Positions 3,018 through 40,139 of a stretch of 64,000 nt of DNA are shown in pieces. Position numbers and translations under genes: made by a program. Under the pieces are notes generated by a model. That model ran no database searches. It saw nothing but the letters and a program-made list of their open reading frames with translations, and had not been told where the DNA came from. Positions within the stretch are counted from its first letter, which is position 1. Every line of letters starts with the position of its first letter. Source of the DNA: Rhizobium aethiopicum (lineage in GTDB: Bacteria; Pseudomonadota; Alphaproteobacteria; Rhizobiales; Rhizobiaceae); assembly GCF_014197535.1 (NCBI RefSeq), contig NZ_JACIFV010000002.1, positions 434,001 to 498,000 on the forward strand, given 5' to 3'.

Positions 3018-3114
3018 AAGCGTGATACCCTAATTCCGGGAACCGAATGTCGGTTCCTTTCTCGATGACAACATTCCTACAAATCCGCAGCTGAACGAAG
3101 GCTGAACGACAAAA

Positions 3115-33181: not shown

Positions 33182-33658
33182 TCAGCCCCAGGAAACCTGG
33201 AGGATTTCGTAGGCCTTGGAGCCGCCGGGTGCGTTGACCTCGATGGAATCACCGACTTCCTTGCCGATCAGCGCGCGGGCGATCGGGGAGGAGATGGAGA
33301 TGCGGCCAGCCTTGACGTCGGCTTCCTGGTCGCCAACGATCTGATAGGTCTTTTCTTCTTCGGTGTCCTCGTCGACGAGCTTCACCTTGGCGCCGAACTT
33401 GATCTTGTCGCCCGACATCTTGGTGAGGTCGATGACCTCGGCGCGCGCCGTTAGGTCTTCCAGTTCGCTGATACGGCCCTCGTTGTGGCTCTGGGCTTCC
33501 TTGGCGGCGTGGTATTCGGCGTTTTCGGAAAGGTCGCCATGAGCACGGGCCTCGGCGATCGCCTCGATGATTCGGGGGCGCTCCTCCTGCTGACGCCAGC
33601 GCAGCTCTTCCTGCAGCTTGACGAAACCACCCTGTGTCATCGGTACCTTTTCAACCAT
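33182..33658 (-). CDS. greA: Transcription elongation factor GreA
   Basis: A 158-residue factor that rescues backtracked RNA polymerase by stimulating cleavage of the nascent RNA. The N-terminal coiled coil has the two acidic tip residues in [11 protein letters not shown], and the C-terminal FKBP-like domain contains [14 protein letters not shown]. Start at 33658 follows AAGGAC; an in-frame ATG at 33706 adds 16 residues inside the leader hairpin's U-tract and is unlikely. It precedes lpcC closely. The leader holds a terminator-like hairpin at 33716. Confidence 0.96.
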
Positions 33659-33703
33659 TTTTTTGTCCTTCACTCCTTGTGTTCGCGCAATCAGGCGCCC
33701 ACA

Positions 33704-33740
33704 CAAAAGAAAACAGGTCCCGAAGGGGAGCTTCGGAACC
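33704..33740 (-). terminator. Terminator-like hairpin in the greA leader (possible attenuator)
   Basis: On the minus strand GGTTCCGAAG-CTCCC-CTTCGGGACC (10-bp stem with one T-G pair, loop CTCCC, 33740-33716) is followed by TGTTTTCTTTTG. No minus-strand gene ends upstream, so the hairpin lies inside the greA leader. It resembles the terminated greA leader (GraL) of E. coli in position; the sequence similarity is not known to me. A TATAAG box lies at 33770-33765, about 25 bp upstream of the hairpin. Confidence 0.6.
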
Positions 33741-33890
33741 GTGCCACATTTCTAGTTAAGTGCTTATAGCAGATCGGCAAGGCCGATTTCCAGAAAATTC
33801 GCATAGACGAAATGCAACCCACTGCGGCATCGGGCGATGCGCCCCAAAATGGGGCAGAGGCGGGATCGTTTCGGTTGACTATGTATATTA

Positions 33891-33905
33891 GAACATATAG
33901 TGAAC
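33891..33905 (+). promoter_or_regulatory. LexA (SOS) box of the radical SAM/UdgX cassette
   Basis: GAAC-ATATAGT-GAAC fits the alphaproteobacterial LexA consensus GAACN7GAAC (the complement of GTTCN7GTTC) perfectly. It lies 6 bp before the ATG at 33912 and covers the alternative GTG at 33900, which argues against that GTG being the start. TTGACT at 33875 lies just upstream. Confidence 0.75.
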
Positions 33906-33911
33906 ATTGGG

Positions 33912-35144
33912 ATGAAGAAGTCGCTAACCGAACGCTTGGCCATTCTGTCCGACGCTGCGAAATATGACGCTTCCTGCGCGTCCAGCGGCACGGTGAAACG
34001 CGATTCGAGCGCAAACGGCGGGCTGGGTTCAACCGAGGGATCCGGTATCTGCCATGCCTATGCTCCGGATGGGCGGTGCATTTCGCTTCTGAAGATCCTG
34101 CTCACCAATTTCTGCATCTACGACTGCGCCTATTGCGTCAATCGCTCCTCCAGCAATGTCGAGCGGGCACGCTTCACGGCGGAGGAGGTCGTCTGGCTGA
34201 CACTCGAATTTTACCGCCGCAACTATATCGAAGGCCTCTTCCTTTCCTCCGGCATCATCCGCTCTTCCGATTACACGATGGAGGAGATGGTCCGCATTGT
34301 CCGCGAGCTGCGGGTGACGCATAATTTCCGCGGCTATATCCATCTCAAAGCGATCCCCGAGGCGTCGCCGCATCTGATCGAGGAGGCGGGGCTTCATGCC
34401 GACAGGCTGTCGCTCAATATCGAACTGCCGACCGACAGCGGGATTTCCCGTTTCGCGCCGGAAAAGAAGCCGGCCAGTATCAGGCGATCGATGGCTGATC
34501 TCAGGTTGAAGATCGAGGCGGCCGATGAACCGACGCTTAAGACCAAAAAACGACAGCGTTTCGTCCCGGCTGGCCAGAGCACGCAGATGATCGTCGGCGC
34601 GGATGGGGCCAATGATGCGACGATCCTGGCGAGCAGCGGCCGGCTCTATAGCAGCTATGGTCTGAAGCGTGTCTATTATTCCGCCTTCAGCCCCATCCCA
34701 GACGCCTCAAAAAACCTGCCGCTGATCAAGCCGCCGCTGATGCGGGAACACCGACTTTACCAGGCCGACTGGCTCTATCGGTTCTACGGCTTCGGCATCG
34801 ACGAGATTACCGCAAACCAGGCGGGCGGCATGCTCGATCTCAATCTCGATCCGAAACTTGCCTGGGCGCTGGCCAACCGGGCCGATTTTCCTGTCGACAT
34901 CAACAAGGCTGAGCGCGAGCGGTTGCTGCGTGTGCCCGGCCTCGGCACCAAGACGGTGAAGGCGATCGTTTCGGCACGCCGGTTTCGTCGCCTGCGGCTC
35001 GATGAGCTCGCCCGGCTCGGCGTTTCGATCAAGAAGGTCCGAGCCTTCATCTCAGCGGAAGGCTGGTCGCCGCGACGGCTAGTCGACCGCCCGGATCTGC
35101 GCGCCATGTTCGAGCCGCAGCCTGAACAATTGTCGTTGCTGTGA
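33912..35144 (+). CDS. Radical SAM protein of the UDG-linked DNA modification/repair family
   Basis: A 410-residue protein with the radical SAM 4Fe-4S motif CxxxCxxC at 68-75 (CIYDCAYC), an N-terminal AAKYDASCASSG segment, and a C-terminal helix-hairpin-helix (LLRVPGLGTKTVKAIVSARR) that would bind DNA. It matches a family known only by its genomic pairing with uracil-DNA glycosylase-like proteins; the reaction is not established. I start at ATG 33912. Its stop shares a base with the UdgX start, so the two are coupled. The LexA-type box upstream suggests SOS control. An N-terminal extension or a second cluster was not found. Confidence 0.9.
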   Translation: MKKSLTERLAILSDAAKYDASCASSGTVKRDSSANGGLGSTEGSGICHAYAPDGRCISLLKILLTNFCIYDCAYCVNRSSSNVERARFTAEEVVWLTLEFYRRNYIEGLFLSSGIIRSSDYTMEEMVRIVRELRVTHNFRGYIHLKAIPEASPHLIEEAGLHADRLSLNIELPTDSGISRFAPEKKPASIRRSMADLRLKIEAADEPTLKTKKRQRFVPAGQSTQMIVGADGANDATILASSGRLYSSYGLKRVYYSAFSPIPDASKNLPLIKPPLMREHRLYQADWLYRFYGFGIDEITANQAGGMLDLNLDPKLAWALANRADFPVDINKAERERLLRVPGLGTKTVKAIVSARRFRRLRLDELARLGVSIKKVRAFISAEGWSPRRLVDRPDLRAMFEPQPEQLSLL

Positions 35145-36598
35145 TGCGCCGGGTCGTGCTTGCGGGGCGCGGAGATCTTGGCGAATGGCGTGACGCCGCA
35201 CGCGCCCTGGCGGCCGCCGGCATATTGCCCGAGGAGATCGACTGGCGTGAAAAAAGCGCCGAGGCCGATCTTTCATTTCAACGGGACGCCATGCCGCCCG
35301 CGCCTGCGACAACACGCAAGCCGATGACGGTGCCGCCCGCCTTCATCGAGCTTGCCGAGACGGTTCTCTGCCATTCCGATCCGGCGCGATTTTCTCTGCT
35401 GTACCGTCTGCTCTGGCGGCTTCAACTGGATCGGCAGCTGCTGGAGGTAAGTTCCGACGAGGATGTCGTGCGGGCCAGGCTGATGGCGAAGAACGTTCGG
35501 CGCGACGCGCACAAGATGACGGCCTTCGTCCGTTTCAAGGAAGTCGGCGCGGTATCGGCAGGTCGCCGGAAATTCCTCGCCTGGTTCGAGCCGGATCATC
35601 ATATCGTCAGGCGCACGGCTGCGTTTTTCCAGCGGCGTTTCACCGACATGGACTGGCTGATTGCCACGCCCAAGGGCTCGGCGGCCTGGGACGGCGAGCG
35701 GCTGACGATTGCCGACGAGCCCTGCGAAAAGCCTAATCTCAGCGATGCCACGGACGAACTCTGGCGGACCTACTATGCCAGCATCTTCAACCCGGCGCGG
35801 TTGAAGGTGAAGGCGATGCAGGCGGAGATGCCGAAGAAATACTGGAAGAACCTGCCGGAGGCCGACCTTATTCCCGGTTTGATTGCATCGGCCGAAAGCA
35901 AGGTGCGGGAGATGGCGGCGCGGGAGGTGACGCAGTCGCTGCCGTTTCACGACCGCTTACAGCAGGCCGCACGCAATCAGCCCGCAGAACCCGAGCCTCC
36001 GGCGGGCACGCTGGAAGCACTGCGCGCAGAAGCCGCGGTCTGCACGCGCTGCCCTTTGCATGCCTATGCGACCCAGACTGTCTTCGGGGAGGGGCCGCGT
36101 GATGCGCGGGTGATGTTCGTCGGCGAGCAGCCGGGCGATCAGGAGGATATTTCCGGACGTCCCTTCGTCGGACCTGCCGGCATGCTGCTCGATCAGGTGC
36201 TATTGGAGGCGGGCATCGACCGGTCGACGCTCTACGTCACCAATGCCGTCAAGCATTTCAAATATGAGCCGCGCGGCAAGCGGCGCATCCACCAGAAGCC
36301 CAATATGGGCGAGGTAAAGCTTTGCCGCTGGTGGCTCGATCGGGAAATGTCACTCATCAAGCCGAAACTGATCGTCGCGATGGGCGCGACGGCGCTTGCT
36401 GCGCTGACCGATGTGAAAGAACGCCTGCAGGATGTCAGGGGAAGGGCGATGGCGATCGAAGGAGGGCGCACGCTCTTCGTGACGGTGCATCCGTCCTATC
36501 TGCTGCGCATTCCGGACGAGCGACTGAAGGCGGAGGAGCTGGCGCGGTTTCGCGACGACCTGCTGAAAATTCAGCGGCTTATCGTCTCAGCTGGATAA
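35144..36598 (+). CDS. DUF4130-UdgX fusion, uracil-DNA glycosylase-like DNA repair protein
   Basis: A 484-residue two-domain protein. Residues 1 to about 265 match the DUF4130 (radical-SAM-linked) domain. The C-terminal part is a family 4-like uracil-DNA glycosylase: CTRCPLHAYA (iron-sulfur Cys 300 and 303), GEQPGDQED (327-335), and HPSYLL. The loop KRRIH (379-383) is the mark of UdgX, which in Mycobacterium forms a covalent bond from this His to the abasic sugar after removing uracil. The start at 35144 overlaps the previous stop by one base (TGATG); a GTG at 35141 is also in frame. It probably acts with the radical SAM protein on damaged DNA. Confidence 0.92.
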   Translation: MRRVVLAGRGDLGEWRDAARALAAAGILPEEIDWREKSAEADLSFQRDAMPPAPATTRKPMTVPPAFIELAETVLCHSDPARFSLLYRLLWRLQLDRQLLEVSSDEDVVRARLMAKNVRRDAHKMTAFVRFKEVGAVSAGRRKFLAWFEPDHHIVRRTAAFFQRRFTDMDWLIATPKGSAAWDGERLTIADEPCEKPNLSDATDELWRTYYASIFNPARLKVKAMQAEMPKKYWKNLPEADLIPGLIASAESKVREMAAREVTQSLPFHDRLQQAARNQPAEPEPPAGTLEALRAEAAVCTRCPLHAYATQTVFGEGPRDARVMFVGEQPGDQEDISGRPFVGPAGMLLDQVLLEAGIDRSTLYVTNAVKHFKYEPRGKRRIHQKPNMGEVKLCRWWLDREMSLIKPKLIVAMGATALAALTDVKERLQDVRGRAMAIEGGRTLFVTVHPSYLLRIPDERLKAEELARFRDDLLKIQRLIVSAG

Positions 36599-36650
36599 AT
36601 TGATTCCGGCTGAGTTTGCGCCACCGCCTTATGGCGATGGCGCTGCCGTA

Positions 36651-40139
<3,489 letters not shown>

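Follow-up and report, generated by a model that had tools for sequence, protein, structure and literature searches.

A conserved LexA box and a predicted clamp-binding tail in a radical SAM-DUF4130 cassette of Rhizobium aethiopicum

We analyzed a stretch of 64,000 nucleotides of the Rhizobium aethiopicum genome (NCBI RefSeq assembly GCF_014197535.1, contig NZ_JACIFV010000002.1; hereafter the window, in which all positions are counted unless another locus is named) that encodes a two-gene cassette consisting of a radical SAM protein and a fusion of a DUF4130 domain with a UdgX domain. The cassette is preceded by a LexA (SOS) box whose position is retained across relatives. At its C-terminus, the radical SAM protein has a conserved tail that resembles the motif of beta sliding clamp clients. 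We estimate at roughly 0.6 the probability that the radical SAM-DUF4130 pair is an SOS-induced unit for the processing of DNA lesions that is tethered to the clamp and acts on freshly replicated or stalled DNA. The features on which the analysis is centered are the following.

33875-33901, plus strand: possible promoter, with TTGACT at 33875-33880 and TATAGT at 33896-33901, the latter inside the LexA box; the spacer is only 15 bases
33891-33905, plus strand: LexA (SOS) box GAACATATAGTGAAC, an exact GAACN7GAAC match with a position kept in relatives
33912-35144, plus strand: radical SAM protein of 410 amino acids, family TIGR03916, with the start as annotated in R. leguminosarum pSK03
35127-35141, plus strand: QLSLL, residues 406-410 of that protein, a beta-clamp-binding motif predicted from conservation and the published consensus
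35144-36598, plus strand: second gene, the DUF4130-UdgX fusion, starting with the ATG at 35144
35144-35890, plus strand: DUF4130/TIGR03915 domain, with profile matches over the cut-offs
35867-36568, plus strand: TIGR03914 (UdgX) match, with the motifs GEQPGDQED, TNAVKH, GKRRIH and HPS

The LexA box and its conservation

The preliminary description of this DNA reported a perfect alphaproteobacterial LexA box immediately before the radical SAM gene, and the exact match is indeed found at 33891-33905, with the ATG at 33912, the likely start codon, 6 bases downstream. A GTG at 33900 was considered as the start and set aside because it falls inside the box and because the homologous gene of R. leguminosarum pSK03 is annotated from the ATG; the pSK03 protein is 93% identical to that of the window, and the two loci have greA, a glycosyltransferase gene and carB in common as neighbors. 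The number of GAACN7GAAC matches in the window, 2 observed against 1.68 expected, is not significant by itself; the second match, GAACGAAGGCTGAAC at 3093-3107, is within the chance expectation, and the genome (6.49 Mb) contains 174 matches compared to 128 for the backwards control pattern. It is the conserved position rather than the count that rules out a chance match, and the box looks like a site of real regulation.

The search for the box upstream of homologs that had been proposed as a check was run and revealed strong conservation. Among 80 alphaproteobacterial relatives (the best 80 of 594 from a sequence search of genome contigs, all of which were tested), 78 contain a perfect GAACN7GAAC or GTTCN7GTTC, the first base of which is 62 to 16 bases upstream of the matched start, with about 0.26 expected from the background of the same loci; in the same stretch, boxes with a spacer of 6 or 8 were found in none of the 80 loci, and CAAGN7CAAG and CTTGN7CTTG in one each. 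An even sample of 385 genomes of the class, which may share species with the 80 relatives, yielded 25 radical SAM loci tested for the box, this genome included, and the alpha-type box is present in 24 of these (0.03 expected). As the relatives do not represent independent observations, the counts should not be read as probabilities.

The alpha-type box is absent from all 29 relatives that belong to other classes of the phylum, and 19 of them have the Escherichia coli-type box, CTGTN8ACAG, instead (0.11 expected); the looser pattern CTGN10CAG was detected in 24 of the 29 (1.41 expected), and controls with a reversed motif or a shifted spacer gave no matches. Control by LexA thus seems to have been maintained while the type of the box changed. 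Among 12 further loci, three (L136, L147 and L148) have the alpha-type box and one, from Caballeronia (L144), has the E. coli type; in a clostridial locus (L141), GAACN4GTTC occurs at distances of 185 and 156 bases on the upstream side, and a small annotated frame lies in between. A palindrome around GTCTCATCCAATGAGAC is found in two of the other-class loci (L177 and L200), with a close variant in a third locus of the same genus (L189). The palindrome ends about 22 bases upstream of the radical SAM start codon and is possibly a different site for the response to damage.

The sequence around the box is also compatible with a promoter, in that 15 of 78 relatives (19%) have an exact TTGAC starting 9 to 25 bases 5' of the box, compared to 1.1% of random places. 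The same GAACN7GAAC motif precedes lexA in this genome (GAACACATATGGAAC), and the frames near further copies are, presumably, imuA, uvrA with ssb, ligD and a gene for an SRAP protein; no perfect copy was found within 1.5 kb of the recA match. A search of positions 33600-37000 against Rfam at the gathering threshold gave no match to an RNA element.

The radical SAM protein and its C-terminal tail

The product of the first gene belongs to the TIGR03916 family with a score of 570.4 bits, compared to the curated cut-off of 343.5, and its QLSLL tail, located at the free C-terminal end of the 410-residue protein, has the form expected of a beta-clamp client. The published clamp consensus is QL[S/D]LF, with QLNLF in UmuC and QLGLF in Pol II (PMC3716654). 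We surveyed the tails of 146 homologs, this genome's included, most of them from Pseudomonadota. A loose motif, Q[LMAGFPQ]x[LMIF], lies within the final 30 residues in 145, and the one protein without it (L055) is cut off by its contig. In its strict form, Q[LMAG]xL[FLWI], the motif occurs in the last 12 residues of 133 of the 146, compared to 3 of 1653 other open frames from these loci (200 codons or more, not all genes). The variants QLSLF, QLSLGF, QLSIF, QLSLW and QLLLDF follow differing linkers in Spirosoma, Acinetobacter, two Clostridia, Gemmatirosa and Bacteroides; the six-residue forms presumably fit the longer version of the clamp motif. These observations suggest that the radical SAM protein may dock on the beta sliding clamp; the preliminary description does not mention the tail. 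Our literature search, in the texts available to it, found no paper connecting the TIGR03916 family with the clamp, although one may exist.

The tail could also be a structural or partner-binding element rather than a clamp tag, an explanation that concerns this one step and is compatible with any of the other readings. The structure model draws a short helix at residues 405-409, and the last two ten-residue blocks have predicted local distance difference test (pLDDT) values of 72 and 63; against this, the motif is kept after linkers of differing sequence and length in several phyla and agrees with the clamp consensus given in PMC3716654, and we consider such a role unlikely. In the DUF4130 family, positions 43-44 are a near-invariant Leu-Phe (LSF at 35270-35278 in the window; QLSLI in Acetoanaerobium) in a stretch modeled with lower confidence, possibly a further contact with the clamp in degenerate form.

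The CxxxCxxC motif (C68, C72 and C75) is present in all 147 aligned rows, and three additional cysteines are nearly invariant (C22 in 145, C47 and C56 in 146 each of the 147), which could hold a second cluster. A homolog from Gemmatirosa (L143, 3501-4664 of its locus, 38% identity) is devoid of these three cysteines and is the only homolog without DUF4130 in a complete stretch (8 kb); it has QLSLW near its end. Residues 328-357 resemble a helix-hairpin-helix, with a match to Pfam HHH_3 (E 8.7e-6) that, at 26.2 bits, is just below the cut-off of 27. In the structure model (pLDDT 85.1, predicted template modeling score (pTM) 0.81, residues 20-44 poorly modeled), the radical SAM barrel most closely matches the folds of HydE (3cix, Foldseek E 1.6e-7), lipoyl synthase (4u0o, Z 17.5, root-mean-square deviation (rmsd) 3.3 over 226 residues) and biotin synthase, and the matches barely reach past residue 312. 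The family was detected in 25 of the 385 sampled genomes of the class and in 84 of 398 sampled genomes of the phylum, the latter sample including near relatives. A gene with the same annotated name is upregulated on desiccation in Acinetobacter Tol 5, according to PMC13130816, which we count in favor of a role in DNA repair under SOS control.

Two alternative activities have to be considered for this protein. One is the reversal of photolesions by an enzyme akin to spore photoproduct lyase (SplB), and in its favor DUF4130 has been tied to "SplB-like radical SAM photolyases" (PMC3765255) and SplB itself, likewise a radical SAM protein of DNA repair, is SOS regulated in several species (PMC8565304). 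However, among the NCBIfam matches listed for three homologs at E up to 10, where filters drop many weak matches, there was no SplB model; the weak matches were to HydE, ThiH, MoaA and similar families. The lyase is also missing from the listed fold matches, which excludes nothing, and the helix-hairpin-helix region and the clamp-type tail are features of the window protein that set it apart from SplB; on balance, photolesion reversal appears improbable. The other alternative is that the protein writes a base modification, for example by transfer of sulfur or a methyl group, and is not a repair enzyme. The NCBIfam name of the family, "DNA modification/repair", leaves room for such an activity, and C22, C47 and C56 together with the lipoyl synthase-like fold would suit an auxiliary cluster or a sulfur donor. 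The presence of two kinds of LexA-type box in different classes argues against modification, as does a PADLOC search at E up to 0.1, which produced no match and thus no support for a defense system, and we regard this alternative as very improbable.

DUF4130 and the UdgX domain

The N-terminal domain of the second protein matches TIGR03915 with 214.7 bits (cut-off 112.25) and DUF4130 with 138.1 bits (cut-off 27). The two genes overlap by one base, as had been described previously and as is also annotated in pSK03, with the stop codon TGA at 35142-35144 running into the ATG at 35144. Among the 385 genomes of the class, 25 encode TIGR03916, 25 encode TIGR03915 and 24 encode both, on the same strand and at most 0.7 kb apart. 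The exceptions are a genome in which the gene runs off the contig (G045) and one with DUF4130 and no TIGR03916 match (G182); the DUF4130 gene of the latter (L252, 2313-3559) is preceded, at about 460 bases, by a LexA-type box and is perhaps the remnant of a decayed cassette. Across 145 loci, for which DUF4130 and UdgX were counted by profile search (frame searches had overlooked DUF4130 in some loci, 7 of 80 with a rough version and 11 of 117 with one based on ATG starts), DUF4130 is present in 142, namely 79 of the 80 alphaproteobacterial relatives, 24 of the 25 class-sample loci, all 29 other-class loci and 10 of 11 further loci. Two of the three misses are at contig ends (L124 and L055), and the third is the Gemmatirosa locus (L143).

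The UdgX domain has a different distribution. The loci of Bacteroides, Spirosoma, Clostridia and Acinetobacter have DUF4130 without UdgX, and UdgX is encoded in the same frame in 73 of the 80, 16 of the 25 (plus L040, cut by the locus end), 11 of the 29 and 3 of the 11 loci of the same sets. Fused UdgX is found in 17 of the 24 class genomes with the radical SAM-DUF4130 pair; 2 of the other 7 have UdgX elsewhere, as do 15 class genomes without the pair. The core of the cassette is thus radical SAM plus DUF4130, and UdgX is optional. Because UdgX is often absent where the other two stay together, it is probably dispensable for the core chemistry.

In the window, the motifs of the UdgX domain are intact. 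The protein matches TIGR03914 with 342.5 bits against a cut-off of 189.95 and also matches the UDG family, and the KRRIH loop named in the preliminary description is in place (GKRRIHQKP), the crosslinking histidine included; the family profile aligns with Mycobacterium smegmatis UdgX (6ail, E 4.8e-68) across this loop. Residues E52, D56, D59, F65, N91, K94, R107, H109 and H178 act in excision and cross-linking (PMC10776899), and in our own mapping by motif these correspond to residues of GEQPGDQED, TNAVKH, GKRRIH and HPS. In a set of 64 proteins, from which short sequences and those without a recognizable GEQPG-type motif were left out (L088, L114 and L115 among them), the R-loop and GEQPGD are present in all 64, the F65 position and HPS in 61 each, and TNAxKH in 58. 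A second UdgX above the cut-off is encoded elsewhere in this genome (L247; G000 C6:245285-245860), with no GAACN7GAAC within 1.5 kb.

These patterns bear on the possibility that the operon is centered on UdgX, that is, a base excision system for uracil or ribonucleotides left by error-prone synthesis, with the radical SAM protein as an accessory, which is close to the published reading. The R-loop pattern is retained in 66 of the 67 fused proteins recognized among the 80 loci (L114 being the exception), as such a system would have it. However, fused UdgX is absent from 7 of the 24 class cassettes (the two with UdgX elsewhere included), 18 of the 29 other-class loci and 8 of the 11 further loci, and DUF4130 is retained in all 29 of the other-class loci and in 10 of the 11 further ones, some of the rows being short (L193 is cut by the contig). 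We consider a UdgX-centered system distinctly improbable, and the weight placed on UdgX in the preliminary description looks misplaced.

The model of the DUF4130 domain (pLDDT 87.7, pTM 0.79) suggests a RecJ-like fold, which we treat as a lead. It aligns with 8a8k_A at Z 8.0 (rmsd 4.4 over 176 residues), a value that is common without kinship, with RecJ (5f54) at Z 7.4 (rmsd 4.0 over 178) and with archaeal RecJ-Cdc45 (7bih) at Z 6.8, and most of the first 35 structure matches are RecJ, Cdc45-type or pyrophosphatase entries, which we take to be DHH-DHHA1 proteins. The best Foldseek E is a weak 0.059, among many unrelated matches. The resemblance to RecJ and family II pyrophosphatases is without support from sequence profiles: the hhalign comparisons of DUF4130 with DHH gave probabilities of 0.3 and 0.2, and the positive control, two families known to be DHH, reached 92.7. 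At E up to 10, searches of Pfam with 6 proteins and of NCBIfam with 4 lent no support to a DHH assignment. A profile search of the PDB sequences returned two matches, the better with E 0.24. DUF4130 is therefore not upheld as a proven DHH protein by profile comparison, Pfam or NCBIfam.

A scan of viral contigs yielded two loci. An unverified gut phage contig (L145, MT835514.1, 43.8 kb) encodes the radical SAM-DUF4130 pair; a contig labeled "Acinetobacter phage MD-2021a" (L146, CAKLQH020000003.1) has the pair together with glyS and glyQ and looks like bacterial chromosome, not phage. The genome of the laboratory species Caulobacter vibrioides has matches over the cut-off to all three families.

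Proposed mechanism and relation to known systems

NCBIfam already names all three families (TIGR03916, TIGR03915 and TIGR03914), and we take COG4277 to be the radical SAM family described here. In families and gene order, the cassette is identical to this set and to the COG1573-COG4277 operon, the window showing no departure. By comparative genomics, SOS-type motifs have been located upstream of that operon in Bacteroidetes, and a system of this type is said to have been reported earlier as SOS controlled in Verrucomicrobia and Alphaproteobacteria (PMC8565304). The preliminary description had suggested that the pair may be an undescribed lesion-processing system; the cassette of two genes, its conserved LexA box and the intact motifs of UdgX stand, but "undescribed" does not, given that SOS control of this kind of operon and the association of DUF4130, radical SAM and uracil-DNA glycosylase are already in print. 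The cassette belongs to a known but uncharacterized kind, and the present analysis adds the clamp-type tail, the switch of box type with control kept, and a lesser role for UdgX. Neither the tail nor the optional status of UdgX is found in the available parts of the COG1573-COG4277 literature.

The polymerases UmuC and Pol II are under SOS control. They have the QLxLF clamp motif in common with the window protein, which is a radical enzyme and not a polymerase. Similarly, KRRIH, GEQPG and HPS are shared with M. smegmatis UdgX; the solved UdgX chains consist of 205-229 residues, whereas the UdgX domain described here forms a fusion with DUF4130, encoded downstream of a radical SAM gene.

In the proposed mechanism, LexA would occupy the box by the start codon, where it may cover the -10 element, until its cleavage once RecA senses damage. 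The radical SAM protein would then bind the beta sliding clamp via the QLSLL tail, as the conservation of the motif suggests, and could contact DNA through the helix-hairpin-helix region, in line with the Pfam match below the cut-off. A 5'-deoxyadenosyl radical, to be expected from CxxxCxxC and the fold, would act on a damaged base, and DUF4130, the near-constant partner, would perhaps hold or present the DNA. Where fused, UdgX, with its motifs intact, would excise uracil or trap an abasic site covalently. LexA binding, clamp docking, DNA as the substrate, radical repair and the DNA-holding role of DUF4130 are all deduced in this scheme. A more specific version is a clamp-riding SOS radical SAM machine that acts on a damaged base in new DNA, in which DUF4130 would be a reduced RecJ-like partner and UdgX, where present, would complete the reaction; we consider it possible but less likely than not.

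Several observations weigh against an SOS-induced, clamp-tethered repair unit. The perfect box is missing from three alphaproteobacterial loci (L035, L063 and L084), two of which (L063 and L084) are, by eye, one base off the motif; neither box type is found in 5 of the 29 other-class relatives (L149, L177, L189, L196 and L200), and in 7 of the 12 further loci there is no LexA-type pattern among those tried, except for a loose two-triplet match in L145. A standard promoter scan detected no promoter at the cassette, and the available main text of a Caulobacter SOS paper (PMC12700426), the gene table of which is in the supplement, does not contain the words "radical" and "uracil". Clamp docking is predicted from a short motif, and the lesion, the substrate and the activity are likewise surmised.

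If the more specific version, the clamp-riding machine, is real, it would represent a route of DNA repair separate from photolyases, glycosylases and excision repair. Docking on the clamp combined with SOS control would point to lesions at or behind the replication fork. The radical SAM-DUF4130 pair is not rare in the class or in the phylum.

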